A stretch of 64,000 bases of DNA from positions 1 to 64,000 of the IMG/VR virus record IMGVR_UViG_3300003690_000090, one strand, 5' to 3'. The stretch comes from a virus. Under the pieces are notes generated by a model. The model was given only the letters and a program-made list of their open reading frames with translations, had not been told where the DNA came from and did no database searches. The stretch's first letter is position 1, and each line of letters begins with the position of its first letter. Below, piece by piece: positions 6,201 through 44,311 of this stretch. The translations under genes and the position numbers were made by a program.

Positions 6201-9200
6201 CTGATGTCGCTGGGCTTCCTGCTCGACGATGGACAGCACCAATAAGCTTTTCTGCGCAAGTGCGAGAGATTTTCCAGGGCCTCTTCGAGCGCATCGCCTC
6301 CATCCTCAAGCGCACCTATGGCGATGAGGGCATCATCAAGTCGCTCGACATCGACAAGGATGTTGCGGAGTACTTCACCGACTTCGTAGACCGGCTGATG
6401 AAGGGCGAGGTGGAAGTAGAGAACATTCGTAGGATCTACGAACGTCGTTCGAATGAGCCCAGGATGCTTTTCTCGATCTCATCCTCAAAGCGCATGAGGC
6501 CTCTCCGCGATGTTTCCGACGTAGAGCCTGCGAAGATGACGCGTGAAGAGCTCGACCAGGCGGTCCAAGACGCTGGCTTTATTGACCTGCCTGACGCCAA
6601 GCGTGCGATGCAGGACGCCTATCTCCCCTTTGAGGAATACGAGCACGTCTATGCCGTCTCAAGACAGGGGTTGGGTCCAGAAGATATTTGGGACATTCCT
6701 GTCAGCGGGAAAACAGCAGCTCGAGTCAATGACTTGAGGAAGCAATGGGAGTCTCTGACCGACGACATCATGATCAGGCATCAAGAGGGTCGGCTTGATG
6801 GCCTTGAAGAGATGGAGGCCGAGGCCGGGGGGTTGTTGGACAGCCTACATGCTGCAGTGGCCGAGCTGCAGACCGATCGAGATGGCATCTCATCTAGTGG
6901 GTGGGTTGGCACAGAAGAGAGCCTGTTCAAGATCTATCAAGAGTTTCTGAACTCCAGAGAGGATCCAAAGGCAAGGCTGCAGGCAGTTGGTCATCGCCGT
7001 GCAGAAGCGATGAAAGACAAGCCGATGTCCAAAAAGGAGTATGACTCCTACTTTGCCGAAAGGGTTCGGAGCATAATCAAGTCCAGCCCAGCCGCGCCTG
7101 GCGGTGAAACGGTGTTGCCGATGCCGCAACTGGCCAAGCTCCAGGCCAAGGCGCTGCTAAACAGGGCCAAGAAATCCTGGGAGAAACGCTCGGAGGTAAA
7201 GAAGAAGAACCCACAGGCGGAAAACTTCGTTGACGAGCACGCCCTGTCTGCTTGGAACCTGCAGCGCATCCAGGTCAACAGGCTGCCGGCAGAGGTACAA
7301 GCCGCGCTTGAGCTCACTGTGCGCGATGCTGGCGGGCCTCGGGCTCCGAAGCCGGAGATTCCTGGCGAATCAACCCCACCGAAGCCGTTCGAGATTCTGT
7401 TCCATGGCCCCAAGGGGGAAGAGCGTGGGTTCTTCAGTTTCGATTTCGAGACCTACCAAGCGCTTATCGATGTCCTGAAATACGGAAACTACGAAACCCT
7501 GGTTCGCGGCAATGCTTTGCTCTTTAGCAAGTTCATGGGCGATAAGTGGACGCAGGGGTTCATCAAGCATTTCGAGAACGTAAAGGACGATGCCGGCAGG
7601 GTCACGCTGACGGAACGGGGTGAGCGCCAGGCGGCAAGAGCGTTCGGATACTACATCAGGTCCGCGACCTCACCTCACGGAGGTCTCAAGCGATATTTCG
7701 ACCAGGCGTACATCACCCTGCAGGACTACTGGGCCAAGATTCGTGGGCAGGTATCGATTCTACCGCCAGAGGTGCGGAATTTCTTTGACCAGTTCCTTCG
7801 CCCGGAGCTGCGGTACGAAGGCGATGCCATCAAGCTGACGGAAAATATCACGCGGGAACCCCCGCTGGTCCGTCTTCCAGAAACCGCAGCGGAAAGGCTT
7901 CGTGAAGAAATCCAGCCAAGAATGGCAAAGCGCCGTGCATTTTGGGCTGTGAATACCGACCCAAGGGTGGTTCGTGCCGAGCTCGGTATTCAGGAAGGAC
8001 AGACCCACATCGATCCGGTCGATCTTCTAGTCGCAGCTGTTGGGTATGTCGCTGCGGAAAACGCCAAGAAGCTGCTCGGGCCTGGTCGTATTTTCATGAT
8101 GACGCCTCGGTCTATGGTGCCAGAATCGCGGCGAAGGGCTGTACTGGAACGCTTGAGTGCAAAGCTGCATGCATCTATTGGGACAAACACCCCTAAATGG
8201 AACAAAGTTACCGACGATATACCGGATAGCGAAAGGCCAACCCTGCCGACTGGGCGCAGATGGCGCAAAGAAAAAGAGGCTCATCTCGACTTTGGAGGCG
8301 AGTCTGGTTGGCATGAATTGGACCCAGCTCAACAGGCTGGAATGAAGGTGCTTGCGCAGGACTTGGCCAGGCACCCAATGGGCAACATCGTTCCAGATCG
8401 CTTTTTGGTTCCAGATGCGGATCTCAGCACGATATTTGTGGACGAATGGGCATCAATTATTGAGGCTGTGATTGATATCGAGGCGGGCGTTGGCGCAAGG
8501 CGGGCGCACTACTCGGAAGCCATCAACCCAACCCAAGCAACCGCGCTTTGGATGGCATTGAAGTCTGGTGTGGTGGACTTGTCGGATGCAAGCAACAGCG
8601 TAGATGGCCTAGTTAAAAACCTGAGGCGGATGTTCAAGCTGGAAGAGTTTGCTGGAGGAAAGCTTGGCCCGCTCTTCAGAACAGTTTTCGAGAAAAACAT
8701 CCGCATGATGGAGTTGGCCCCAAGAGAGATCTTGGCCCTTGCCAAAACAGCGCTGGAAGGAAAAAAAGAACTCAGCCTTCAAGGAATTTTCCTAGCATTG
8801 AAGGACACTCTTAGGCCTCCTGTTGATACGTCTGTTGTAGATGACATTGTAGGGACGATCGATCTTAAGCATATCGATAGAACGATGGACCACAAGAGCA
8901 CCGGGCTCCTTTCTCTTTTGAGAGAGTGGACCGGGGCAGAAAAGGCTCATTTGTACGGCGAGGGTACAGAAAAAACCTCCGCATTCTTGCGCGGCGAAGA
9001 ACAGATGGGACCTGGTTACCACTTCGCTACGACCGAAGAACTGCAGGGAATGAGCAAGGTCGAGTACATCGTTTCCAGCCATCACCAGTTCGAACGGATC
9101 CTTGCCGCGTCGAATCGGTACACGGATGAACAGCGCATCAACATTCTTCAACCTCTTCGTCGATACGCGATGGATCTTGAAGAGGCCAGGGCCCGTGGGG

Positions 9201-19055: not shown

Positions 19056-20009
19056 TTAGGCGAACGGGTCGACGTTGTCGGGTTCCTCCAGAACCTCTTC
19101 TTCCGGTTCTGGATGAAACAGTTCTACCGGTTCTACCTGTTCTGCCGGTGCAGCCTCGACAACCTTCTTGGCCCTGCTCTTCCGCTTTTTCGTCGGTTCC
19201 GGGGGGGCATCCGCATCAATGGTCTCGGTGGCGTTGAACAGTGCCTTCTCGCCGGCATCCTTCTCGAGATCCTTGCGAACGACTTCTGGCACAAACATGT
19301 CCTTGTCCTGGCCGGCGATGTCGGTCACGATATCGTGCTCGAGGGCCGCTTTGGCGTCAGCTGTGAGCGGCAGGTACTTGCAGATCCGGCGGATGACCGT
19401 CTTGCGCCACATCTCCTCGGTGTGTGTGACCCAGGGCCCAGAGTTTCCACTCCGAGCTGACTTGCGGATTGTTTCGATCTGGTCTCGGCGCATGACTTCG
19501 ACCTGTTTCTGTCCATCCTTGAAGAAGCAGACAGCGTAGGCAAGGATTAGTTGGCCAGGATCCCCGTTGTACTTGGGCTCATGATGAAGCACTTCGCCTT
19601 GTTCCAGATCAAACGAGTGCGTGAACACCTCGTTCTCATGAACGACGCGAGCCACGAAGTTCGCAACGTCGCCGGAGCGGCGCACCAGTTCCATCAGGCC
19701 GGTGTAGTCAATCCACAGCTCGGCCTCCATGCAGCTCCGTTTCTTGTTGTACAGGGGAACCAGGTGGGCTCGGTGGAGAACGCCTCCCGCAACAAGGTTG
19801 AGCTCACAGGCCTTGGCCAGTGAGGTGTAGATCGACTCTGGGCTGCAGTCCAAGAGCCGTTCGTTCTTGTAGGCCTCGAAGCAGGCCAGGCTGACGATGC
19901 GTTCAATGTCGGTGCCCTTGGGCGCGATTCGCTGAAGGGTCGGAGACTTTCTCTCCAGGTAGTCCTTGATGTTTCCTAGCTTTCTTTGAGGTGTAAGTGC
20001 TGTCGTCAT
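19056..20009 (-). CDS. recT: RecT-family single-strand DNA annealing protein (317 aa)
   Basis: The sequence carries the RecT pattern: LLDCSPESIYTSLAKACELN, LVAGGVLHRAHLVPLY, ELWIDYTGLMELVRRSGD, then SGPWVTHTEEMWRKT followed by VIRRICKYLP. RecT proteins anneal complementary single strands produced by a partner exonuclease and support phage recombination. The C-terminal 70 residues are a Lys/Glu/Pro-rich tail without clear structure. The ATG overlaps the stop of the exonuclease gene as ATGA, so the two are translationally coupled, as in many phage exonuclease/annealase pairs. Confidence 0.93.
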   Translation of the reverse strand: MTTALTPQRKLGNIKDYLERKSPTLQRIAPKGTDIERIVSLACFEAYKNERLLDCSPESIYTSLAKACELNLVAGGVLHRAHLVPLYNKKRSCMEAELWIDYTGLMELVRRSGDVANFVARVVHENEVFTHSFDLEQGEVLHHEPKYNGDPGQLILAYAVCFFKDGQKQVEVMRRDQIETIRKSARSGNSGPWVTHTEEMWRKTVIRRICKYLPLTADAKAALEHDIVTDIAGQDKDMFVPEVVRKDLEKDAGEKALFNATETIDADAPPEPTKKRKSRAKKVVEAAPAEQVEPVELFHPEPEEEVLEEPDNVDPFA

Positions 20010-20971
20010 GGTTTGGCTCCAAGCACGCGAAAGACCCGGGCGCCGTCGCGATCTGAAAGGTAGGACTCATAAAGATCCGGGTGGTCCTGTTGAAACTTCT
20101 TCTGGTCGAATCGCTTGGAACTCTTGTTTTGTTTCCAAGAAGCGATTCCATCAATGCCTTCACTGTCGCCGATTGCAGCCCTGAGCTTGTTTTCAATCTC
20201 ATTCTTTTCATCGGTGCTCGCTTTGACTTTCCGACGAACCTCGAGCAATCGTTCATGGAGCTCGATTTCCTCTCCCGTGGCTGCACGCAAAACGTGTTCC
20301 TTGACTCGGGGATGCATCATTGAAAGCGCACTCTTGGCGAAATCGCTTCCATCTGGCGATGGCGGTGCATTGCCATCAATGTGTTTTTCCCACCAGGCGA
20401 TGGCGGTGTCCAGAATCTGACCGCCCAGCTCCTTGTCTCTGTCGATCCTGTACTCGCGGTAGTCATCCATTCCAATGAGTACAGCCACATCCCAGAAGGG
20501 CATATCGGTGACTTCCATGTAGACGCGGCACTGTATTTCCACATCCAACGGAACTAGGCCTGTTCCGCTATCTCCCCACCCCTCACGCCTGCGACGTGTC
20601 TTGATTTCCAGACCCCAAGTCGAGTCGTCGTCCCCAACGATAATTCGATCCGGTGTTCCGAAGATCTTCGCCATGCCGGAGTGCCAAACCAGGCCGCACT
20701 CTTTGACCTTGATGCCTGTATGGTTTTCCGCGTAGATCTCGGACACGTACTTTTCCATGACCCGGCCGCGCTTCATGGCGGGATTGTCCGACTGTGCCTC
20801 GATCTCATGCCGCATCTTGTTTGACCAGAGCGCAAACAAGCTCTTGCCAAATGAGCCAACCTTCATCTCTTTGTCGGCTGAAGCGCAGATGATGGAGGCG
20901 ATGTCTGTGCCGCCTAGTCCCCCTTTTCGTTCTCGGAGCCAGGCTTCGCGTTCGTTGGTTGTCTGTTCCAT
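20006..20971 (-). CDS. YqaJ-type (lambda-exonuclease-like) recombination nuclease (321 aa)
   Basis: Near the N-terminus GGLGGTDIASI matches the conserved GIGGSDI element, followed by MKRGRVMEKYVSEIY, a GTPDRII motif and GLEIKT, the PD-(D/E)xK core, then a Gln-containing helix (DVEIQCRVYM). These enzymes chew one strand from DNA ends and hand single strands to the RecT partner. I start at ATG 20971 (MEQTTNERE) because a sigma70-like promoter ends just upstream; an ATG at 20995 would add eight residues but lies inside that promoter. There is no clear ribosome site, so the message may be nearly leaderless. Confidence 0.9.
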   Translation of the reverse strand: MEQTTNEREAWLRERKGGLGGTDIASIICASADKEMKVGSFGKSLFALWSNKMRHEIEAQSDNPAMKRGRVMEKYVSEIYAENHTGIKVKECGLVWHSGMAKIFGTPDRIIVGDDDSTWGLEIKTRRRREGWGDSGTGLVPLDVEIQCRVYMEVTDMPFWDVAVLIGMDDYREYRIDRDKELGGQILDTAIAWWEKHIDGNAPPSPDGSDFAKSALSMMHPRVKEHVLRAATGEEIELHERLLEVRRKVKASTDEKNEIENKLRAAIGDSEGIDGIASWKQNKSSKRFDQKKFQQDHPDLYESYLSDRDGARVFRVLGAKP

Positions 20972-20977
20972 GAAGCA

Positions 20978-21006
20978 ATCGTAGTCACCGCCCATTACCG
21001 TGTCAA
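20978..21006 (-). promoter_or_regulatory. Leftward promoter of the exonuclease/recT operon
   Basis: On the minus strand TTGACA (21006-21001) and TACGAT (20983-20978) are separated by exactly 17 bp. The -35 box is perfect and the -10 box matches 4 of 6. Predicted start is around 20971, at the exonuclease ATG. Confidence 0.6.
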
Positions 21007-21010
21007 GGAG

Positions 21011-21026
21011 CCACGCATGCGGGTGG
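21011..21026. promoter_or_regulatory. Candidate operator between divergent promoters
   Basis: CCACGCATGCGGGTGG is a near-palindrome centred on CGCATGCG (21014-21021). It lies between the -35 boxes of the leftward and rightward promoters and is next to a small HTH gene, the usual place for a repressor site. Binding is inferred. Confidence 0.45.
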
Positions 21027-21052
21027 ACAAATTATGGTCTACTGGGTATTCT
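21024..21052 (+). promoter_or_regulatory. Rightward promoter of the HTH gene
   Basis: TGGACA (21024-21029) and TATTCT (21047-21052) are separated by 17 bp. Transcription would start near 21059, just ahead of GGAG (21060-21063) and ATG 21073, which supports that start for the HTH gene. Confidence 0.5.
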
Positions 21053-21072
21053 TCCCGACGGAGACGGCGCTA

Positions 21073-21315
21073 ATGGCCACGGTTGAGCAATATCGAATGG
21101 CCCTTCCTGGGCGCAGTAGTCGTGCCGCGTTTACCGAATGGTTGAACGAACAGCTCGAACCAATGGATCAGGGTCTAAGTGTTCACTATCTAAGAGACCT
21201 AGAGCGGGGCAGAAAGATTCCATCACTATCATTGGCTGTCGCCATCTACCGCGCAACTAGCGGTGTGGTCTCACCCGCTGAGTGGCCTGGCCTCTCTTTC
21301 AAACTTCGGCTTTGA
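21073..21315 (+). CDS. Small helix-turn-helix regulator, Cro/CI-like (80 aa)
   Basis: I place the start at ATG 21073 with GGAG 9 bp upstream, because an in-frame ATG at 21034 lies inside the predicted promoter. The segment AAFTEWLNEQL ... LSVHYLRDLERGRKIPSLSL followed by AVAIYRATSGVVSP has the helix-turn-helix layout of Cro/YdaS-type phage repressors, where the 'LERGRKIPSL' loop is common. It is divergent from the recombination operon, with a palindrome in between. It may repress early genes or itself; there is no integrase in the window to indicate lysogeny. Confidence 0.65.
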   Translation: MATVEQYRMALPGRSSRAAFTEWLNEQLEPMDQGLSVHYLRDLERGRKIPSLSLAVAIYRATSGVVSPAEWPGLSFKLRL

Positions 21316-21513
21316 GTGGCGGCACCAGGTGCATACCTTGTTCAAGTCAATCAGCAACAGCACGGACCCTGGGCCACACTTGGCGCACCGGCCTGGGATT
21401 ACTTCTCCGGCCTGGCCATCGAGTGCGTATACGTCACCATGCCGAACAACCGTTTCATTGGGGATGTCTTCCCAGTTAATTACATGGCCTGGGAACGGTA
21501 CGATCACGCCTGA
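21316..21513 (+). CDS. Unknown small protein (65 aa)
   Basis: GTG 21316 directly follows the TGA of the HTH gene, so translation is probably coupled. The product is aromatic-rich (PWATLGAPAWDYFSGLAIECV ends near residue 37) without a recognised domain. A minus-strand frame over the same bases (21271-21522, GTG start) would give an 83-residue protein with CAKC and CTWC pairs. I prefer the plus frame because it lies between two plus-strand genes with tight spacing, but the choice is not secure. Confidence 0.4.
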   Translation: MAAPGAYLVQVNQQQHGPWATLGAPAWDYFSGLAIECVYVTMPNNRFIGDVFPVNYMAWERYDHA

Positions 21514-21550
21514 AGTTTTCACAAATCCATACTAACAAACGGAGCCGCAG

Positions 21551-21862
21551 ATGCCTCTCATCGATCGAGTCAAACTTCTACATATCAAACAGAACTGGAA
21601 ACGGATGAACCTAAGCAAGGTTCTGCCCGAGCTTCTGGCTTACATTCGTGAGCTCGAAGACATGTTGGAGTCTGGCCAAATCACCGTCAATGTTGGCGCC
21701 ATCAAGGCCACCATCGACGCCGGCCCCGACGGCAGGCTGGGCACCAAAGACGATTCCGTGAAGCTCAGTCGAGCCAAGAGGAAGCCTGCAGCCAAGAAGC
21801 GGGCACCGGCCAAGAAGCGGGCACCGGCCAAGAAGCGGGCACCGGCCAAGAAGAAGTCCTAG
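21551..21862 (+). CDS. DNA-binding-like protein with histone-H1-type Lys/Ala/Pro tail (103 aa)
   Basis: GGAG precedes ATG 21551 by 6 bp. Residues 1-50 are mixed helical (LSKVLPELLAYIRELEDML), residues about 55-72 contain an acidic Gly loop (DAGPDGRLGTKDD) that could bind a metal ion, and the C-terminal 30 residues are PAAKKRAPAKKRAPAKK-type repeats. Such tails neutralise DNA phosphate and occur in bacterial and phage histone-like proteins. The repeat is encoded by near-perfect 18-bp units. Its stop codon lies in the palindrome CCTAGG that also supplies the stop of the convergent gene. Confidence 0.6.
   Translation: MPLIDRVKLLHIKQNWKRMNLSKVLPELLAYIRELEDMLESGQITVNVGAIKATIDAGPDGRLGTKDDSVKLSRAKRKPAAKKRAPAKKRAPAKKRAPAKKKS
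21791..21856 (+). repeat. Tandem 18-bp units encoding the Lys/Ala/Pro tail
   Basis: Three identical copies of GCCAAGAAGCGGGCACCG start at 21791, 21809 and 21827, followed by a partial copy. Identity at the DNA level points to recent slippage expansion. Confidence 0.9.
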
Positions 21863-22038
21863 GACTCGATCTCTGTTCGCAGCGTAGCTGTCATCAACTG
21901 GAATTTTGAGAGCTCTTTGGTCAGCATCTCGTAGCTAGGCCCATAGGCGACCATGTCGCCATCTTCGTCCACTACAATCCAACCCTTCTCATTTCGATCG
22001 AGATTCCAGCCTTCTGGCAACGTGACTGGGGCACTCAT
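21859..22038 (-). CDS. Unknown small protein (59 aa)
   Basis: Although the frame is open to 22245, ATG 22038 overlaps the upstream TGA as ATGA and gives a compact protein (MSAPVTLPEGWNL start). It contains GWIVVDEDGDMVAYGPSYE, which resembles short domains found in phage proteins that display substrates, but I cannot name a family. It is the last gene of the leftward early operon and ends within the stop codon of the convergent basic protein. Confidence 0.6.
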   Translation of the reverse strand: MSAPVTLPEGWNLDRNEKGWIVVDEDGDMVAYGPSYEMLTKELSKFQLMTATLRTEIES

Positions 22039-22568
22039 CGCAGCGTCGGACATCCCTCGTAGGGCACCAGGTTGTTCATGTAGTCCATCACGAACGCCTC
22101 GTGCCAAGCTCTCGCTGACTCCATGAAGGAGCGCACGAAGCATTCCTCGGACAGAAGGTTCCAGAACGTCTCCTCTTCTCGTCCCAGCATACGACGGGAT
22201 TCGTTTGCGTGCTTCCACAACTGGTATGGACGCATCGACAACCATTCCTGTATCCCGGCCAACTCAACGTCATTTGGCAATTCATCATCGCGCTCGAGGT
22301 TGAAGAGCGCATCACCAACGGCCAGGTAGACATCGCTCATGAGCTCGGGCTGTATGTCTTCCGTGTCCCAAACAGGATCCGGCAACATCGCATTGATTCC
22401 GATCATGATGATCTTCAGCAGTGCGCCGCTTTCGACCATGGATTCGATTTCAGTGGCCGTTGAATCGTAGCGACCAAACAGCGCCCTGACGGAGCAAGGA
22501 AAGCCCAGCTCGGATTGCAAATCAATCTTGTCGGATTTCGATAGGTATGTTTCTACTTGTTCGTTCAT
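22035..22568 (-). CDS. Unknown acidic protein (177 aa)
   Basis: ATG 22568 (MNEQVETYLSK) follows a CCTAGGAC ribosome-site region; the longer open frame to 22643 overlaps the upstream gene and is not used. The protein is acidic and helical, with aromatic and Met-rich segments (EETFWNLLSEE, MESARAWHEAFVMDYMNN). No domain is recognised. It is coupled at its end to the 59-residue gene. Confidence 0.6.
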   Translation of the reverse strand: MNEQVETYLSKSDKIDLQSELGFPCSVRALFGRYDSTATEIESMVESGALLKIIMIGINAMLPDPVWDTEDIQPELMSDVYLAVGDALFNLERDDELPNDVELAGIQEWLSMRPYQLWKHANESRRMLGREEETFWNLLSEECFVRSFMESARAWHEAFVMDYMNNLVPYEGCPTLR

Positions 22569-22572
22569 AGTC

Positions 22573-22995
22573 CTAGGACGGGTCTGCGAGGTTGTCTCTT
22601 GTTGCAGCAGAGGCGGAAATCCTGTTGACGTAGCCCATGACATTGATCACGTCGGCGCTGCCGGCATAGGCTGCGATTCGCCTGGCCGTAGTGCCATTGC
22701 CCTTGAGTGGTTGACCCGGCAGCACAAGCATCCACCCGCTCTTTGGCGGTACTGTGAAGATGCTTCTTTGGTCTACCGCAGCTGTTGCTGTGGATAGGTA
22801 CCCAACATGCATCGTGACCTCCACAGGAGCTGCCGATGTGTTGGTCATCCAAAGCCACACCTCATCCTTGCGTCTCTTCGAAATCAAAGTGTCGTGAATG
22901 AATGTCCCATTGCCGCTGGTATCGGTGATCTTGATGGGCTCGCCGTCACCTTCCGTGCCCCCTGGGCTGAGATTGATTTTAATGTAGGCAGGCAT
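22573..22995 (-). CDS. Structural-protein paralogue embedded in the replication operon (140 aa)
   Basis: AGGA lies just upstream of ATG 22995. The sequence KDEVWLWMTNTSAAPVEVTM and the C-terminal ADVINVMGYVNRISASA closely match the late-region protein at 13766-14125 (DEIWLYATNTHTGTVVLTL, ANVVSIHGFVNRIAAS). This one carries an insertion (PPKSGWMLVLPGQPL) and a longer tail. A decoration-type protein in the early/replication operon is unexpected: it may be a duplicate with a new role, or be expressed early. It lies 8 bp downstream of the helicase gene. Confidence 0.65.
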   Translation of the reverse strand: MPAYIKINLSPGGTEGDGEPIKITDTSGNGTFIHDTLISKRRKDEVWLWMTNTSAAPVEVTMHVGYLSTATAAVDQRSIFTVPPKSGWMLVLPGQPLKGNGTTARRIAAYAGSADVINVMGYVNRISASAATRDNLADPS

Positions 22996-23003
22996 GTTGA
23001 ATC

Positions 23004-24362
23004 CTAGAAGTATGACCCGTCATCTTCGACCTCTTTCGGCCTGTCTATGGCAATGATATCGCCTGGCTTTGACCAGAGATAGGTGCGGGTTCCTTTGTGC
23101 ATCTTTCTCACCCTCTCGTAACCGAGAGAACGCATGATCGTTCCAACCCGCATTTCGGCTGGCTTGCTCATCTGGTATGGCTCCAGCTTTAGGGGGTCTT
23201 GCATGATCTCTTGGGTCGTGATCTGGTTCGTATACTTGGCAGCCAACCAAACGATTAGCATTTCTTCCCACGGATCTTGCTGTCGGTATTCATCCGAGAC
23301 CTGCTGCAGGTCTTCTTCCAGATCGCTCTGCAGCCACCAGGCCTCATTGTTTCGGTAGGCTACTACCGCCTCTGCCCACAACTGTTCTCGGTTGGCATTG
23401 AGCCAATCAAGATTCACAGTACCAACCTCGACGGGCCAGAAGCGCCTCGAGCCAGTCATGTCCGAAATGAAGGACTTCTCGTTGGTGGTGCCGCAGAACA
23501 CACAGTGCCGCTTCTTCGTGACTGCGTGGCGCCCGTATGCTGGGCGGTAGGTGTCTTCTTGAGCTGACAGAAATGCCTTGGTAGCGGAGTTCGCACTCTT
23601 ACGAATGGAGTCGAGCTCGGCCACCTCGTAGATCCAGGTGCGCTGGATCTGCGCATAGGCGTTTGGTGAACCGATATCCATCGGGGTATCGCAGAAGTAC
23701 TGCTCACCAGCCAGGGTGCGAAACGCTGTGCTCTTGCGGGCACCCTGCTTGCCGATCAGGATGAGGACGGTGTCTGCCTTGCATCCTGGTTGCATTGCGC
23801 GTGCAACGGCCTGAATCAGCCAGCGACGGCCCACATCCCGATGTAGTTCATTGTCTGCCGCCCCGACGCCCCTGATCAGCCACTCCGAAATGCGCGGCGT
23901 TCCATCCCAACTGCAGGCCTCGAGCCATTCTATCAGTGGGTTCCGCTTGCGTTCTTCGCCAATGAGAGACGCAACCTCGGTGACCAGGCCTGTATTAAGC
24001 CGTACATCGTAGACTTCCTCCAGCCAGATGGCGATGCGGGTGTCGTCTGTGTCTCGATACTCCTGGTCAGCAAGCATCAGCACGTTTCGAAAGTCGTCTT
24101 TCCAGACCTTCTTACGCCAACGCCGGTCATGAGAAATGATCAGGTAAGCGTTTCTCTTGGTGGGGCGAACGGCCTGTGTTCCATCCTTGGTGGTCATCAT
24201 CTGCAGCATAGACAGGACGCTGCTGCTGGCTTGCGCTTCTTGGTTTGGACTGCCCGTAGGTATGCCGTCTTTGCCCACAGGCCCAGCATCCACGGCTGCC
24301 TCCATGAGCTCAACAAGAGTGGGTGCGTTTGCTTCGGTCAGGGTTTCAGACAGGTCAGGCAA
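23004..24362 (-). CDS. VapE/VirE-type replicative helicase (452 aa)
   Basis: The Walker A motif GKQGARKST is at 204-212, followed by WIYEVAELD (about 243-251) as the Walker B region and a GTTNEKSFISDMTGSRRFWP segment with the arginines expected of an SF3/AAA-type motor. This is the pattern of virulence-associated-protein-E helicases, which unwind DNA at phage and island origins together with a primase. The N-terminal 190 residues are family-specific. The gene overlaps the upstream primase by 8 bp, so the primase and helicase activities are split between two adjacent proteins. Confidence 0.88.
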   Translation of the reverse strand: MPDLSETLTEANAPTLVELMEAAVDAGPVGKDGIPTGSPNQEAQASSSVLSMLQMMTTKDGTQAVRPTKRNAYLIISHDRRWRKKVWKDDFRNVLMLADQEYRDTDDTRIAIWLEEVYDVRLNTGLVTEVASLIGEERKRNPLIEWLEACSWDGTPRISEWLIRGVGAADNELHRDVGRRWLIQAVARAMQPGCKADTVLILIGKQGARKSTAFRTLAGEQYFCDTPMDIGSPNAYAQIQRTWIYEVAELDSIRKSANSATKAFLSAQEDTYRPAYGRHAVTKKRHCVFCGTTNEKSFISDMTGSRRFWPVEVGTVNLDWLNANREQLWAEAVVAYRNNEAWWLQSDLEEDLQQVSDEYRQQDPWEEMLIVWLAAKYTNQITTQEIMQDPLKLEPYQMSKPAEMRVGTIMRSLGYERVRKMHKGTRTYLWSKPGDIIAIDRPKEVEDDGSYF

Positions 24363-25380
24363 GGGTTCGCTCCAGTGGAAGCCTATAGACCTTGCGTGGC
24401 GCTAAGGTCTTGGCGATCGTGCTAGCGTATTCATCACCTTGTTCGTCTGGGTCACACCCGATGTAAATGGTTGCGTTGTCTGGCACGTTGAGAGAGGAGA
24501 GTGAGGAGAAGGATCCGGAGGCACCGGAGATAATAGCGAGGTTGGTATTGGCCTTTGTAACTTCCGAGCAAGCCATGAGAAGGTCTGTGATGCCTTCGCA
24601 GATCAAAAGGCCGTATAGATCCTTTGCTGGGTTGCCCTTCATCAACATCATCCCTTCGCGGTTGGCCATAAAAAGACCGCCGGCCTCGACGCCCATAGGC
24701 CACCTGGTCTTCGGGGCATCGTCTCGGTCAAAGACTGACCTGGCGTGAATGCTGGCAAAGGTGCCATCGATTTCGAACGCCGGAACGATGATCTTCCACT
24801 GGGAGCTCCATCGCTTGGGCCACCACTGTGGCCAGTGGTGTTGGTCTGGGTGTGGCAGCACCTTGGCCACACCCGACTTGATCAGCGATGGTATGTCGAG
24901 CTGTCTGCGTTCGAGAAACCGCAACACCGCTGCGTCTGCTCCTGAATCCGTGAGTGTCTCTATCTTCCTGCTTGCAGCCCAGAGAGCCAGAACCTCTTCC
25001 TGCTTGGGTCGCTGTCTCTCCCTGGGTTCGCGTCGTTTGGGTTGCGCCACCGGGGTACCGTTTGTGTGCTGCGCGATCCATCCGCGCTGGAGGTACCACT
25101 CTCTCACAGTCCGCTTCTTCTCTGCGGTCAGATTTCGGAGCCTGTCGCCCTCCAGCTTCATAGCCACCAGATCGACCCCATCACCGCCCGTACCGCAGGC
25201 GTGGCACTTCCATCCACGGTCATCCATGGCCACACCAACCGGTCCGCGCCGGTCATTACTTCCCCGAGTCTCGGCTCCACAATGCGGGCATGGGCTCAAA
25301 GATCTACCGCGCCCCGGGTTCAGGCCGACAGCAGTAGCTATGGTGCCAAGTGGCACCTCTTTTGCCGACTGAATCCACAT
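24355..25380 (-). CDS. DNA primase with CHC2 zinc finger and TOPRIM core (341 aa)
   Basis: The N-terminus carries a zinc finger, CPHC at 31-34 and CHAC at 59-62, typical of phage and bacterial primases. Near the C-terminus a TOPRIM domain shows LLICEGITDLL (catalytic Glu) and IYIGCDPDEQGDEY (DxD-type metal ligands). Such proteins make RNA primers for replication. Ribosome site CGGAG precedes ATG 25380. It is short compared with bacterial DnaG (no helicase-binding domain), which fits its pairing with the separate VapE-like helicase. Confidence 0.88.
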   Translation of the reverse strand: MWIQSAKEVPLGTIATAVGLNPGRGRSLSPCPHCGAETRGSNDRRGPVGVAMDDRGWKCHACGTGGDGVDLVAMKLEGDRLRNLTAEKKRTVREWYLQRGWIAQHTNGTPVAQPKRREPRERQRPKQEEVLALWAASRKIETLTDSGADAAVLRFLERRQLDIPSLIKSGVAKVLPHPDQHHWPQWWPKRWSSQWKIIVPAFEIDGTFASIHARSVFDRDDAPKTRWPMGVEAGGLFMANREGMMLMKGNPAKDLYGLLICEGITDLLMACSEVTKANTNLAIISGASGSFSSLSSLNVPDNATIYIGCDPDEQGDEYASTIAKTLAPRKVYRLPLERTLA

Positions 25381-25403
25381 GGTGTCTCCGTGGAAGATTC
25401 GCC

Positions 25404-25423
25404 GACTGACGCTATAGTCAGTC
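25404..25423. promoter_or_regulatory. Perfect inverted repeat upstream of the primase gene
   Basis: GACTGAC (25404-25410) and GTCAGTC (25417-25423) flank a 6-bp loop, and the second arm runs on into further GTCA units. It covers the stop codon of the HTH-like gene and lies 24 bp before the primase. It could be an operator or a weak hairpin; there is no U-run. Confidence 0.45.
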
Positions 25424-25702
25424 AGTCAGTTCCAGGGAGAAGTCGAGTTCGCCAGCGGGGTTGACAGTAAAGCTCATTTCGATGCCAACTTCCTTCTTGG
25501 CCCGTTTGGCGTACTTGATCATCGTGTCCAACAGTGGTGCTGGGCGGGTGCCTTGAATCATGTGCCAAAGCGCTGTGTGGCTCGTGCCAATGACCCTGGC
25601 GACAGGCCGGTACCCGCCACCCACTGCGTCGACCAGCGCTTGAAGTGCTGGGACTGTGTTGACTCGTTCTTTCGCTGCTACGTATTTGCTGCTGCCTGAC
25701 AT
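25418..25702 (-). CDS. Probable helix-turn-helix regulator (94 aa)
   Basis: AAGGA lies upstream of ATG 25702. The middle section (GYRPVARVIGTSHTALWHMI) has the spacing of a helix-turn-helix, with RVIGTSHTAL as turn and recognition helix. The protein is basic in the first half and ends acidic (FSLELTD). Its stop lies inside an inverted repeat in front of the primase gene, so autoregulation or control of the replication genes is possible. No close family is recognised. Confidence 0.55.
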   Translation of the reverse strand: MSGSSKYVAAKERVNTVPALQALVDAVGGGYRPVARVIGTSHTALWHMIQGTRPAPLLDTMIKYAKRAKKEVGIEMSFTVNPAGELDFSLELTD

Positions 25703-25705
25703 GAT

Positions 25706-26092
25706 CTATCCTTGAAACAGGTGGTAAACGGTTTTGCTTTCGGTGCTTTGCTCGGAGCGCTCTGCCATCAGGATCACTTCTCCGGCATCGTCGCCGTGGT
25801 AGTCGGTCACCATCTTTCGGATTGAGATCGTCTCTCCAAGATTGTAGGGTTCGTCGCTCTTGGGCAGCTCGATGACGATGTCATCGAATGCCAGGTCAAT
25901 CATCGGAACGATGTTCGTGTGAATGCCTCGGGTGCCCATGCATTCGTAAGACCCGATCCCATGGTCCTCAAAGCGGATTGGGCTTTCTGCGAGAACGCCG
26001 CAGAGCTTATCGTGAATCAGGTCACACACATCGAGTTCGTAGTTCTTGTCGTACTGAACAAGAAAGCGTCTTTGCGGATGTTTGCCGTCCAT
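25706..26092 (-). CDS. Unknown protein (128 aa)
   Basis: Two starts compete. ATG 26158 overlaps the upstream stop as ATGA and gives 150 residues. ATG 26092 has GAGG six bases upstream and lies just after a predicted promoter (26145-26117) with the conserved ACACAAACACGAGG leader, so I choose 26092. The product (start MDGKHPQRRF) has mixed alpha/beta sequence with DFL/VQYDKNYELDV and an IVIELPKSDEPYNL region; no family is recognised. Confidence 0.6.
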   Translation of the reverse strand: MDGKHPQRRFLVQYDKNYELDVCDLIHDKLCGVLAESPIRFEDHGIGSYECMGTRGIHTNIVPMIDLAFDDIVIELPKSDEPYNLGETISIRKMVTDYHGDDAGEVILMAERSEQSTESKTVYHLFQG

Positions 26093-26116
26093 TTTGTTCC
26101 TCGTGTTTGTGTAGTC

Positions 26117-26145
26117 AATGTAGGTAACCCCCTGCTGTCTGTCAA
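26117..26145 (-). promoter_or_regulatory. Promoter with accessory-type leader
   Basis: TTGACA (26145-26140) and TACATT (26122-26117) are 17 bp apart on the minus strand. The region also contains GGGGGTTAC and a downstream ACACAAACACGAGG leader, linking it to the promoter family of the 31.9-43 kb cassettes. Confidence 0.6.
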
Positions 26146-26154
26146 GGTAACAGC

Positions 26155-27147
26155 TCATTTCTCTGATCCGGTGTCGCACATCCCCCACCGCACGCATCCC
26201 TGGTGGCCTGTTGGGTCCGTGAAGAGCTCTACTTGGTCCATGCTCCCGCCTCGTGTCGTGCGTGCCCACTTGATCACTTTGTCGATGGGCCAGGTGTCTC
26301 CGGCCCTCTTGCCGGTCTTGGGGTCTGTGCGAGAGATCGGGTTCTGAAACCACGTCGGTGGCTGGTATCCAAGCGACTCAAAGGTCTCCCCCTTGGCGGC
26401 GTACCGCTTCTTCGCGGCCTCCATGATGACCTTCTCCAGCTCGCCCAGAAGCTCAATGCGTTCTGGTGCGTAGTCGCTCATCGCTCGCAGCTCTGACTTG
26501 CGGGCGAAAATGCATGGGTAGCACCCCACTCGGGTACTCCCTTGTTCCAGATAGAGCCGGCAAGGACGGACCCCGTGGCGGTGGTGGATGGCAATGACAT
26601 CCTTCTCGGACCAGTCGATCAGGGGTCGCCACACATCGCACTTGAACGTCCCGCTGTACTCCCACTCCAGCATCATCGAGCGAGCGGCGGACTCCTGGGC
26701 GCGGATGCCGACCACGTTGATGACCTGGCCCTCGCGCTCCAGCAGGTAGTCCCGAGCCGGATACACCTTGAGGTGCTGGGTACACCACCGCCTGACACGA
26801 GAGGGGAACATCCCCTTCTTGATGCACAGCCGGACCATCGAGGAGTATTCCACGCCGAGCAATCTCTCGAAGTGTTCTGCCACCGGAACCATTTCCTCTG
26901 GAATGTCGATCTTTGCCGACAACCTAGTGACGGGCCCAACCACTGCGGGCAGGTCGTTCTCTACGTATTGGTACAAATAGTCATGTTCCCAACCCGTATC
27001 GAAGAAGATGCGGTCGTAGTCGTCGGGGCCGTACCCAAGGTCCATCAGGTGCAGACAGCAGGCCGTGGAGTCCTTGCCGCCGGAGACGGACACTACCAGG
27101 CGGCGCCCATCCAGTTTTTCATCGAGCTCTTCGCGTGTCATCTGCAT
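26155..27147 (-). CDS. PAPS-reductase-like PP-loop ATPase (330 aa)
   Basis: The PP-loop SGGKDST (22-28) and the phrase FFDTGWEHDY are hallmarks of the phosphoadenosine-phosphosulfate-reductase/adenine-hydrolase fold. Later elements include a WCTQHLKVYPARDYL segment, VVGIRAQESAAR and a GCYPC Cys pair (about residue 209) that may bind zinc or iron. Phage members of this family occur beside DNA-modifying genes. Whether this one reduces sulfate, adenylates a base or takes part in DNA modification cannot be told. It overlaps the methyltransferase by 10 bp. ATG 27141, with AAGGGA upstream, is an alternative start. Confidence 0.8.
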   Translation of the reverse strand: MQMTREELDEKLDGRRLVVSVSGGKDSTACCLHLMDLGYGPDDYDRIFFDTGWEHDYLYQYVENDLPAVVGPVTRLSAKIDIPEEMVPVAEHFERLLGVEYSSMVRLCIKKGMFPSRVRRWCTQHLKVYPARDYLLEREGQVINVVGIRAQESAARSMMLEWEYSGTFKCDVWRPLIDWSEKDVIAIHHRHGVRPCRLYLEQGSTRVGCYPCIFARKSELRAMSDYAPERIELLGELEKVIMEAAKKRYAAKGETFESLGYQPPTWFQNPISRTDPKTGKRAGDTWPIDKVIKWARTTRGGSMDQVELFTDPTGHQGCVRWGMCDTGSEK

Positions 27148-27989
27148 TCCCTTACGTTTCGAAACAATGGCGCATCGCTGCGGATTCGTCTGCGAGATTC
27201 CTCTGCGTACTGCTGGTTGAGCTCAACGCCAAGAAAGTTTCTGCCCAGCCTGTTCGCTACTAATCCGGTTGTTCCGGCTCCAGCGAATGGGTCGAGTACC
27301 AGGTCTCCGATTGCACTCCCGGCCTTGATGCAGCGCTCGGCCAGGTCGGGAACCATCACAGCTACGTGACTGCCGGCGTACCTGGCCACCGGCAAAGACC
27401 ACACGTCCCTCGGTCGACGCCCCTCGAGTTCCCCGGCGTTGTATACGCGCCCGCTGTAGGTCTCGTTACCGCTTTGCTTGTGTCCGCCAAAGCCAGCTGA
27501 TATCGTCACGTCCGGATGCTTTAGTGGCTCGAGTACAGCCTGCATGTCGAAGTAGTAGTGCGGGTTCTTTGCCAGCAGGAAGACGTGCTCATGAGCTGGG
27601 GTGAATCGGTCGGTGACTCCCCCGCCTGCAGGAATGGTGTTGGTCTTGTGCCAGATGATTTCCGAGCGCAGCACCCAGCCTCGTTCTTGCAAAGCAAGGG
27701 CAACTCGCCACGGAACACCCATGAGTTGCTTGTCGACATAGCAGTCTCCAAGGTTCAGCCACAGCGTGCCGTCTTCTGCCAGCACATGCTTCACCTGGTC
27801 CATGCGTGCGCAAATGTTGAACACGTACTCTTCGAGAGTATGTTCCGACCCGAGCTCGTTCTCGGTCCCGTAGGAACGGAGATTCCAGTAGGGTGGGCTC
27901 GTGACGCAGCACCTGGCCACACCAGCCTTCTGGCGTTGAAGCTCGTCGAGACAGTCACCGTGTAGTACTACAGCCCAGGTGTCAGCCAT
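27138..27989 (-). CDS. Beta-class DNA methyltransferase, N4-cytosine or N6-adenine (283 aa)
   Basis: Motif IV SPPY is at 31-34 and precedes motif I DPFAGAGTT at 233-241, the order of beta-class amino-methyltransferases. SPPYW is more common in N4-cytosine enzymes but does not exclude adenine. A frame open to 28100 is not used, because ATG 27989 overlaps the QueC stop by 8 bp and gives a normal start (MADTWAVVLHGDC). No partner restriction gene is present, so it probably protects phage DNA. It is coupled to queC upstream and to the PP-loop gene downstream. The recognition site is unknown. Confidence 0.9.
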   Translation of the reverse strand: MADTWAVVLHGDCLDELQRQKAGVARCCVTSPPYWNLRSYGTENELGSEHTLEEYVFNICARMDQVKHVLAEDGTLWLNLGDCYVDKQLMGVPWRVALALQERGWVLRSEIIWHKTNTIPAGGGVTDRFTPAHEHVFLLAKNPHYYFDMQAVLEPLKHPDVTISAGFGGHKQSGNETYSGRVYNAGELEGRRPRDVWSLPVARYAGSHVAVMVPDLAERCIKAGSAIGDLVLDPFAGAGTTGLVANRLGRNFLGVELNQQYAEESRRRIRSDAPLFRNVRECR

Positions 27990-28584
27990 TGGATGCCCCA
28001 TTGATGGCATTGATGCGCAACACGCAGGAGTTACAGGTTCCGCATGGTTCGCCTGATTTTGCATTTGCAGAGTAGCAACTCCAAGTAGTTTCCAAATCAA
28101 TGCCCAGACCGATGGCTCGGGCGATCACCTCTGGCTTCCGAAGTTCTATTAGCGGGGCGACTATGCGAACGCCTGTGTCCTGCTCAACAAGCCTGCAGAT
28201 ATCAGAGACGAAGCCTGGCCTGCAGTCCGGGTAGTCCTCCCAGTCGTCTCTGGTCGGGCCATACCAAACCTCTTGAATGCCTTTGGCGGCGGCATAGTTG
28301 ACTGCCAGCGAAAGCATGATCAGGTTCCGGCCTGGGATCATCCTTGAACCAGGCTCGCCGGATGACGCCTTCATGGGCTCCATCCCGCGAATCGTTGGCA
28401 TCAATCGCAACATCTCGACATCGTGTTTGCGAGCCCATTCTGCTGCAACTCGAAACTCATCGGGTCCGGATGGTTGCATGTAGGAGAAGTGGAGCAGTGA
28501 ATGCAGCACTCCCCCCTGGTGCGCCATGGTTGCTAGGACGGTGGAATCCACTCCACCGCTGAACAGAACTGCGACTGACTTCAT
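27982..28584 (-). CDS. queC: QueC-like 7-cyano-7-deazaguanine (preQ0) synthase (200 aa)
   Basis: The PP-loop SGGVDS is at 9-14; later come GRNLIMLSLA, DDWEDYPDCRPGF and a zinc site with four cysteines (C-x10-C-x2-C-x2-C at the C-terminus, CYSA ... CGTCNSC). This is the QueC family, which converts carboxy-deazaguanine to preQ0 using ATP and ammonia. The ATG at 28584 overlaps the dpdA stop (ATGA), so it is translated after the transglycosylase. FolE, QueD and QueE are not in the window, so the substrate probably comes from the host or from phage genes outside it. Together with DpdA it implies deazaguanine in the phage DNA. Confidence 0.9.
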   Translation of the reverse strand: MKSVAVLFSGGVDSTVLATMAHQGGVLHSLLHFSYMQPSGPDEFRVAAEWARKHDVEMLRLMPTIRGMEPMKASSGEPGSRMIPGRNLIMLSLAVNYAAAKGIQEVWYGPTRDDWEDYPDCRPGFVSDICRLVEQDTGVRIVAPLIELRKPEVIARAIGLGIDLETTWSCYSANAKSGEPCGTCNSCVLRINAINGASNG

Positions 28585-29194
28585 ATGATTTCCCATAGGG
28601 GTAGTTGGTTTTTGGCATTGGTGAGTAGGGGAATGCTGACTGCAAACCTGCTTGCGCTTGTGCCATCAAACGAATCCGCACCAGCGAACTGGCATAGGCG
28701 TATTCTCCTGGCGGTGTTCACTCGCCCCACATGGAAATAAGCGCCGGTCTCCCGTGCCAGCTGCCCCCATTGCCGCATCGTATCCAACTTCCAGTCTGTT
28801 GTGCCGCCCAAGAAAATGCCGATTTCATCGCACAACAGGGAACGGATATCGCCTGGTGTCATGCCATCCTGAACGGCTATGAGTTGCCTGTGTCCCACGC
28901 CGCGCAGCCTGGGCAGCCACTCTTCTGAAAAGCGTAGCGACTCGTGCCCCCCCCAACGATGTCGGGCACGACGATGAACTCGGCGTTGTCGCCAAGAGAT
29001 TCGACGACGGCCTCAAAGGCCGGGACATCGAATGGAAGGCCTTTCTGGTAGGCGGTCCAAGCTCCATTGTCTATTGCGTATGGAAAGCCTTCATGTCGGT
29101 GCTTACCTGTGGCGGACACCAATATGTGCCATCCAGATTTGCGCAGGGCATCAAGGTTTCGACGTGTTCCTGTTCGGCTTGCATAGGGAATCAT
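28581..29194 (-). CDS. dpdA: DpdA-like DNA guanine transglycosylase, frame interrupted at a G8 tract
   Basis: Two frames together read as one phage DpdA. The first, from ATG 29194 (AGGA just upstream), has YASRTG at 4-9, DNGAW at 42-46 and PDIV at 77-80, then runs into eight Gs and ends at a stop in 28877-28879. The second, from the other side of the Gs, continues HESLRFSEEWLPRLRG, GHRQLIAVQDGM, FLGGTTDWK, HVGRVN and FDGTSASRF, all expected downstream. A -1 shift on the G8 tract (or one extra G) joins them into exactly 205 codons. The enzyme swaps guanine for preQ0 in DNA. The break may be programmed frameshifting, transcriptional slippage, a mutation or a sequencing error. A GTG at 29224 could add ten residues. 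Confidence 0.8.
28947..28954 (-). other. G8 slippery tract in dpdA
   Basis: On the coding strand the bases after GTT are eight Gs, giving a G-GGG-GGG slippery heptamer. A -1 shift at this point exactly restores the frame of the downstream DpdA half. Confidence 0.8.
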
Positions 29195-29216
29195 CGTCCT
29201 GGTTGCAGCCCAGGTG

Positions 29217-29396
29217 TCAGCCACGCGCTGCTACCTCGAGCATCGTGCGGATGCATCCCATACAGATCTTTGCGCGAACCTTTGGCCTGGCATCCCAGTT
29301 GTGAAACACGATGAGTTCATCGAACCGGCCTCGACAGATGAGGCATCTGCGCCTGTGGCTAAGTCCGTATGTGTTGTGTTCTGGGGCTTTTGGCAT
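29217..29396 (-). CDS. Small zinc-ribbon protein (59 aa)
   Basis: ATG 29396 has GAGG six bases upstream, and the TGA overlaps the dpdA leader. The translation has CLIC at about 19-22 and CMGC at about 45-48, a four-cysteine zinc ribbon, with FDELIVFHNWDAR between the pairs. The start lies close behind the tiny membrane gene. The tight, overlapping position in the operon and the CxxC pairs support it as a real gene. Probable nucleic-acid or protein-binding role; no named family. Confidence 0.7.
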   Translation of the reverse strand: MPKAPEHNTYGLSHRRRCLICRGRFDELIVFHNWDARPKVRAKICMGCIRTMLEVAARG

Positions 29397-31256: not shown

Positions 31257-31492
31257 TTCGCACCCACTTCTGGTGTGAGTTCGTCGATACGCCTAAGCGC
31301 ATCCCGCAGCAAATCATCCTGTTGGTTGTCCTGCTTTGCGATGATTCCATTGAGCTCGTCGATCTGCTTGAGGGCCTGGGCCAACGCCTTTCCCTTGCGC
31401 CTATTCCAGGTGTTGAGGTGCTCGATCTTCTTCTGCATGTCGTTGTAGACAGCAACCGGGATGACGATGTCAGTGGGTTTGATTCCGCTCAT
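31253..31492 (-). CDS. Coiled-coil protein (79 aa)
   Basis: ATG 31492 overlaps the upstream small gene as ATGA, and the stop overlaps the helicase start. After a short N-terminal segment (SGIKPTDIVIPVAVY) the rest is a continuous amphipathic helix with heptad spacing and many K/D/E/Q residues, typical of a dimeric coiled coil. No catalytic motif. A partner role for the adjacent helicase is possible from context. Confidence 0.6.
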   Translation of the reverse strand: MSGIKPTDIVIPVAVYNDMQKKIEHLNTWNRRKGKALAQALKQIDELNGIIAKQDNQQDDLLRDALRRIDELTPEVGAK

Positions 31493-31644
31493 GAGGCACC
31501 GCCATCAGAGCCCGTGCCCAGTGCGATGGAGACCTGTGCCTTCAGGATCTCTTTGATGGCTTCCGCCTTGGCCCCGACCCGCAACGTCTTGGCGATGTCT
31601 CGGATCTTGCTCACGGTGTTGGTTTCCGCGCCAAGCACCCGCAT
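31489..31644 (-). CDS. Small unknown helical protein (51 aa)
   Basis: The start ATG at 31644 shares a base with the upstream TGA, and the stop overlaps the next ATG as ATGA. The product is helical and basic in the middle (VSKIRDIAKTLRVGAKAEAIK) with a Gly/Ser-rich end. Double overlap with both neighbours and normal codon use support a real gene. No family is recognised. Confidence 0.55.
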   Translation of the reverse strand: MRVLGAETNTVSKIRDIAKTLRVGAKAEAIKEILKAQVSIALGTGSDGGAS

Positions 31645-31871
31645 CAAGATTGCCGCGTCATTGAGGACCCCCGCAGGCGCAGCCGTGCGTTGGCCTCGGT
31701 GTGCCCTGCCGCGCAGAAGTGGTGCGGGTACGTGCCCTCTTTGACCACGACCAACAGCTCTGCCAGGTACACCCCTTCGTCTTCTTTGACCGTCACGACG
31801 TCCAGGCGGGACAGAAGGTCTTCATCGATTTCGATGGCCGGGATGGTGTTGCTTAGTTCGTTGCGGTTCAT
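31644..31871 (-). CDS. Unknown protein (75 aa)
   Basis: The leader ACAACACGAGG is followed by ATG 31871, and a promoter-like element lies just upstream (31935-31907). The protein has an acidic N-terminal half (EIDEDLLSRLDVVTVKEDEG) and a beta-like segment with a His/Cys group (YPHHFCAAGH) that could bind metal. It opens the leftward operon that contains the helicase and the modification genes. Function unknown. Confidence 0.6.
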   Translation of the reverse strand: MNRNELSNTIPAIEIDEDLLSRLDVVTVKEDEGVYLAELLVVVKEGTYPHHFCAAGHTEANARLRLRGSSMTRQS

Positions 31872-42983: not shown

Positions 42984-43045
42984 GGTTGGCACTATCATCA
43001 AGGTGTGGCTACGTAGTTATCATGACAACCAACACCGAGGGATAC

Positions 43046-44311
43046 ATGGAAGAGGACGTGAGATACACCACGCTTGATCTGTTTGCGGGTGCAGGGGGAG
43101 CATCATTGGGACTACGAGACGCAGGGTTTCATCATGCGTTGTGTGTAGAGTGGGATGAGGATGCAACGGAGACGTTGTTGGCAGCAGACTTTCCAGCAGC
43201 GAATGCAGACGTCAGGGAGTTGGATGTCTACAAGACAATCGAGAGAGTCGATCTGTTGTGGGCATCGCCACCATGCCAGGCGTTCTCAACTGCTGGGCAG
43301 AGGAGGGGTGCGGAGGATGACAGGAACGGATGGCCGTGGACTCTTGAGGTGATTGACCACTTGATGGAGCGTGGTGTTGGTCCGAGGTACGTCGTCTGTG
43401 AGAATGTACAGGGACTGACGTACCACCAGGCGGAGTGTGTTGGGGGGAACAGTGGTTGTGCTGGTTGCTATTGGGAAGGGTGGATCATTCCAGAGTTCAA
43501 GAAGCGCTTTGCGTGGGTAGGTCATACGACGTTGGATGCTGCAGGCTTTGGAGTACCACAGCATAGGAAGCGTGTGTTCTTGGTGGCGGGTGATGGACCG
43601 ATACGGTGGCCAGTACCAACGCATGGACCACCGAATGCAGCGAAGCAGGGTGCATTGTTTGGTGGTGGTGTCAGGCCGTATGTCACGGTGCGTGATGCAT
43701 TGAACATTGACGCATGGGCTACGGAGACGAACACGAGCTCGGGTATGGCTCGAGTAGCGAGGAGTGCAGATACTCCATCGTGTTCACCAGTAGCGGGAGG
43801 CAAGGCGCTGGGTGGATTGCTTGAGGTAGACACTAGGGTGATGGGTGTCTCATGCAATCCATTCAAGAAGGATGAGAACGGAGGTCCACTCAAGGAAGAC
43901 AGAACGTACAAGGACATCACGGATACACCAGCTGGGTGTGTGAGTTCTCGTGGTCCATTGGACAATCAAGGTCCATTCGTAGTGAGCGATGGTGCTTCAG
44001 TACCAGGTCCAGGCAGTGAGCCATGGAGACTGGATGAACCATCAGCAACTGTGACTACTACAGAGGAGAAGGGTACGAGGGGGAAGCATATGAGTGGTGG
44101 ACCAGACAGAGCTGCTGACACTATGTGGCGTGGTGCTGGTGTGAGACGATTGACATGGCAGGAGTGTGCAGCGTTGCAGTCGTTTCCAGTGGAACATCCA
44201 TTTCAGGGGAAGACGAAGAAGAGTCTGTATCGCCAGGTAGGGAATGCAGTACCACCACCGTTGTCTCGTGTCTTAGGTCAGGCCGTGAAGGAGGCATTGG
44301 ATGCAGGCTGA
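43046..44311 (+). CDS. C5-cytosine DNA methyltransferase (421 aa)
   Basis: The frame opens at 42986, but GAGG followed by ATG 43046 (MEEDVRYTTL) after the CAACACCGAGG leader is the better start. Motif I DLFAGAGG is at 11-18, the catalytic PPCQ at 75-78 (Cys77), ENV at 119-121, QHRKR at 172-176, and GNAVPPPLSR near the end, so all core motifs of the C5 family are present. It methylates cytosine at an unknown site. Codon use is unusual (G+T-rich), as in the four genes that follow. No restriction partner is present, so it probably protects phage DNA. Confidence 0.93.
   Translation: MEEDVRYTTLDLFAGAGGASLGLRDAGFHHALCVEWDEDATETLLAADFPAANADVRELDVYKTIERVDLLWASPPCQAFSTAGQRRGAEDDRNGWPWTLEVIDHLMERGVGPRYVVCENVQGLTYHQAECVGGNSGCAGCYWEGWIIPEFKKRFAWVGHTTLDAAGFGVPQHRKRVFLVAGDGPIRWPVPTHGPPNAAKQGALFGGGVRPYVTVRDALNIDAWATETNTSSGMARVARSADTPSCSPVAGGKALGGLLEVDTRVMGVSCNPFKKDENGGPLKEDRTYKDITDTPAGCVSSRGPLDNQGPFVVSDGASVPGPGSEPWRLDEPSATVTTTEEKGTRGKHMSGGPDRAADTMWRGAGVRRLTWQECAALQSFPVEHPFQGKTKKSLYRQVGNAVPPPLSRVLGQAVKEALDAG

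Follow-up and report, generated by a model that had tools for sequence, protein, structure and literature searches.

The DpdA protein of Enterobacteria phage 9g is a tested DNA transglycosylase (PMC6884629), and the same phage carries folE, queD, queE and gat-queC. Smaller DpdA-like phage proteins are represented by PHROG 15826 and by gp40 of Arthrobacter phage Aoka. The gene considered here lies in the first 64,000 nucleotides (hereafter the window) of the 72,988-base virus record IMGVR_UViG_3300003690_000090, and its product shares with this small family a length of about 200 aa and the same conserved residues. Aoka gp40, one of the small DpdA-like actinophage proteins with which the product groups by sequence, gave a profile match with an E-value of 1.5e-24, and proteins of Erythrobacter phages R6L and ZS04 showed 50% identity. 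The product and the DpdA of phage 9g are both annotated as TGT-like, but the latter is 317 aa long as opposed to 204 aa here, and the profile comparison between them gave a weak match (hhalign probability 10%, E 0.003).

The dpdA-like gene runs from 29194 to 28581 on the minus strand and is interrupted by a frame break at a tract of eight Gs (C8 on the plus strand) located at exactly 28947-28954. The genes around it form a cassette of a known type:

28877-29194, minus strand: first half of the dpdA-like gene, frame 0, with its ATG at 29194; matches PHROG 15826 positions 1-87.
28947-28954, minus strand: G8 tract, the site of the frame break; relatives read GGGGGTGGG, and one T (A on the plus strand) is absent here.
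28581-28946, minus strand: second half of the dpdA-like gene, -1 frame; matches PHROG 15826 positions 88-200 (E 1.1e-29).
27982-28584, minus strand: queC-like gene (7-cyano-7-deazaguanine synthase family; Pfam QueC, E 5.9e-42), with a likely start at ATG 28584.
27138-28100, minus strand: DNA methyltransferase (N6_N4_Mtase; Pfam E 4.7e-43), next in the cassette.
26155-27147, minus strand: PAPS-reductase-like gene (Pfam PF01507, E 6e-19), next in the cassette.

Read in frame 0 from ATG 29194, a start that agrees with the family N-terminus MIxYASxTGTxRN, the gene as written gives 105 aa (MIPYASRTGTRRN...FIVVPDIVG) and stops at 28877-28879; similarity to the family ends at the G8 tract, and the last ~22 aa are out of frame. 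The -1 frame, which reads GGHESLRFSEEWLPRL...NQLPLWEII, is open from before the tract through to TGA 28581-28583. Joined by a -1 change, the two halves form a protein of 204 aa plus stop, or 205 codons, which matches PHROG 15826 over profile positions 1-200 (E 2.3e-47), and the terminal TGA overlaps the in-frame ATG of queC (ATGA, 28581-28584). The preliminary description, made from the sequence alone, had reported both the split across two frames at G8 and the 205-codon product overlapping queC, and frame mapping, together with the matches of each half and of the join to PHROG 15826, agrees with it on both points. Of the homopolymers of at least five bases in the stretch, only this tract would allow a -1 switch. 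It is not rare for the composition of the window, in which one G8/C8 run was observed against 3.8 expected from dinucleotide shuffles. Translation of the second half might in theory restart internally at GTG 28898, close to where frame 0 stops, an option that was considered and set aside; it would yield half a barrel.

When the joined protein was used to scan IMG/VR, 23 relatives were found, the two nearest of which (L002 and L003, with 97 and 95% amino acid identity, respectively) read GTT GGG GGT GGG CAC at this site and have a single open frame for the same 204-aa protein. Without this T, the G5-T-G3 of the relatives becomes G8 in the window. Alignment to the closest contig (G001) covered 9.95 kb of the window (19384-29337) at 92% nucleotide identity and revealed 11 indels, all of which are in frame or cancel locally except for the missing base at 28950, the sole uncompensated indel whose length is not a multiple of three. 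A 35-kb contig (G002) shows the same single-base difference at the tract, and the change of frame falls at the same codon there. Degenerate DNA patterns allowing run lengths of 8 to 11 or others at the site recovered only the two known relatives and no second G8, in searches that may leave out records very close to the window, and no phage record matched the region by megablast. Elsewhere in the region aligned to G001, a short in-frame repeat (AAGAAGCGGGCACCGGCC-like) lies at 21807-21842, and a 36-base stretch of it is absent in G001.

The frame break is, very probably, a non-programmed loss of one base that is private to the present record. The ancestral GTT GGG GGT GGG CAC would have lost its T, either directly or through a GGT to GGG change followed by contraction of G9 to G8, and the loss would have left the G8 tract and displaced the downstream codons by one.

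Intact relatives also inform the likely function of the gene. The predicted model of the L002 protein is a TIM barrel (pLDDT 92.6) that matched many TGT entries at E-values of about 1e-4 (prob 1.00), with other TIM barrels, ribulose-phosphate epimerases first, ranking above them. The dpdA-like product is, on this model, predicted to have a TGT-like TIM-barrel fold, which supports the DpdA-like identity proposed previously; a search by sequence for a solved structure of an intact relative found none. The 105-aa fragment should be inactive, since it would lack the greater part of the TIM barrel as well as the conserved residues of the second half.

The small DpdA-like family may modify DNA, and it adjoins queC in several viral loci. 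The ATGA overlap of dpdA and queC, the methyltransferase and the PAPS-reductase-like gene are common to L002 and L003, and queC also directly follows the dpdA-like gene in viral loci L005, L006, L015, L018 and L019. The queC-like protein matched TIGR00364 below the cut-off. No match to FolE, QueD or radical-SAM profiles (PF01227, PF01242, PF04055) was found in the whole 72,988-base record, which is possibly incomplete, and so, unlike in phage 9g with its own folE, queD and queE, the modification pathway, if working, would need a host precursor. Besides the N6/N4 methyltransferase of the cassette, the window encodes, at 42986-44311 on the plus strand, a DNA methylase of the C-5 cytosine type (PF00145, E 1.5e-44).

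The 23 IMG/VR relatives were combined with 58 bacterial genome loci, among them Burkholderiales, Pseudomonas and sphingomonads, into a survey set of 81 loci, 78 of which are open throughout in one frame. None of the 81 has a frame break at the G8 site, and no G run at the aligned position exceeds six bases, a length reached in a single locus. The three broken loci (L065, L083 and L086) are all damaged at sites other than the tract, one by an internal stop, one by an early stop and one by two frame changes, which shows that loss of the small DpdA-like gene recurs. The preliminary description asked whether the G run and the frame change recur in relatives. They do not, as the two nearest carry G5-T-G3 in a plain frame and none of the 81 family loci is broken there. 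A conserved recoding site would show the opposite pattern, and the survey thus argues against one.

This bears directly on the proposal that programmed -1 ribosomal frameshifting at the G tract sets the fraction of full-length enzyme. The G run does lie at the junction, the direction of the shift is right, the second half is undecayed and the ATGA overlap couples the gene to queC, but neither the site nor the frame change is conserved in the 81 loci. The slippery sequence had been given as G-GGG-GGG; since the zero-frame codons across the tract are GTT GGG GGG GGC, the true in-phase heptamer is G_GGG_GGC. The tRNA that reads GGC would, once slipped, face GGG, a G.G wobble clash according to decoding rules. 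In a systematic study of heptamers in E. coli, no heptamer scored lower than G_GG.G_GG.U (0.018%), and G_GG.G_GG.C does not appear among the motifs listed as exceeding 0.10% (PMC4066793). Heptamers of the all-G kind rank with the weakest in that host, and G_GGG_GGC is a poor slippery site. No downstream stimulatory RNA structure was found in the 66-115 nt folded without pseudoknots (z = 0.02, -0.52, 0.52), and Rfam and tRNA scans of the window gave no matches. The locus thus has neither a conserved frame change, nor an efficient in-phase slippery heptamer, nor a downstream structure, and programmed frameshifting here is extremely improbable. Control of enzyme dose by such frameshifting or by RNA-polymerase slippage, as first suggested, finds no support given the open frames of relatives, the lack of structure and the poor heptamer.

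The same comparison speaks to the possibility that the tract acts as a contingency switch, with changes in its length during replication producing a phage population with on and off versions of the enzyme. Phase variation at homopolymers is known in bacterial DNA-modification genes (PMC3711429), and this is the sole G8/C8 in the window. However, the run of the nearest relatives is interrupted by a T, a long run is kept in none of the 81 loci, and eight bases is short for a switch, all of which makes this reading very unlikely.

The second half of the gene has a dN/dS of 0.08 between the window and L002 (11 synonymous and 3 replacement changes). Of the changes private to the window, 8 are synonymous and 1 is a replacement, stop codon excluded, a ratio with a P of about 1e-4 to 3e-4 under neutrality, and selection has therefore acted on the second half for nearly all of the time since the viruses split. 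Judged by its codons, the second half is intact and displays no decay. This would place the loss very recently, or make it an assembly or sequencing error. An undecayed second half is compatible with recoding as well as with an error or a very recent mutation, but a recoded gene is disfavored because the frame change is not conserved.

A further possibility is that a genuine recent deletion is partly rescued, with slippage of the polymerase or ribosome on the new G8 giving a small, accidental dose of full-length enzyme. A one-base insertion in the mRNA would restore the frame, and a low level of frameshifting can occur when G runs are decoded, as in the rescue at a G7 run among the G-run variants of herpesvirus thymidine kinase described in a recoding review (PMC5009743). 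The study of slippage by bacterial and T7 polymerases, however, covers A/T runs only (PMC6260861), and the undecayed second half, which also suits a rescued gene, is accounted for equally well by recency or error. We consider such leaky correction improbable, and the non-programmed loss would most likely go without rescue by recoding; if leaky correction were true, it would be a rare phage case of a compensated frameshift in a DNA-modification gene.

As to how the base came to be missing, a very recent real mutation and an assembly or sequencing error are close to evenly balanced, with error slightly ahead, and the earlier caveat concerning such error stands. In contigs from Illumina metagenomes, homopolymer errors affect 0.32-1.02% of genes, or about 3% when other errors are included (PMC3277595), and from these published rates one affected gene would be expected in a record of ~100 genes, about as many as this one contains. 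The authors of GeneTack likewise regarded frameshifts that have protein support but fall into no cluster as mostly sequencing errors (PMC3711429). As relatives carry a T inside the run, a pure homopolymer miscount would need a prior T to G change, the alternative being that the T was dropped directly. In favor of a real mutation, genuine breaks do occur in the small DpdA-like family (3 of 81 loci).

A possible second one-base break lies at 31489-31871 on the minus strand, where two pieces, of 75 aa and 52 aa and offset by one frame, are joined near CGGGGGTCC (about 31660, a G5 run), with a TGATG stop/start overlap. A relative on contig G002 (L029:2-637) has one continuous 212-aa frame matching these pieces. 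Since identity is only 44-56% and this is a single relative, the pieces may equally well be a natural pair of coupled genes; a break near 31660, if confirmed, would favor error as the cause at G8. A codon-usage HMM applied across the record to find further frame breaks was too weak to be of use and called much of the dpdA/queC region non-coding. The window also holds a single open frame of 3860 aa at 242-11824 on the plus strand, near structural genes and without a Pfam match.

The significance of the locus is mainly one of annotation, in that it holds a frame-broken copy of a dpdA-like gene with intact close relatives and not a recoding site. A by-product of the survey is a broad family of DpdA-like proteins of about 200 aa, with putative activity, that extends from viruses to the genomes of Burkholderiales, Pseudomonas and sphingomonads. 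In comparison with the described members of this family, the copies in phages Aoka, R6L and ZS04 are open, whereas that in the window is broken. The break itself resembles the singleton frameshifts described with GeneTack (PMC3711429), being present in one genome only and having halves that match one intact family, and its cause is of an ordinary, already known kind, namely a recent indel or a sequencing error.
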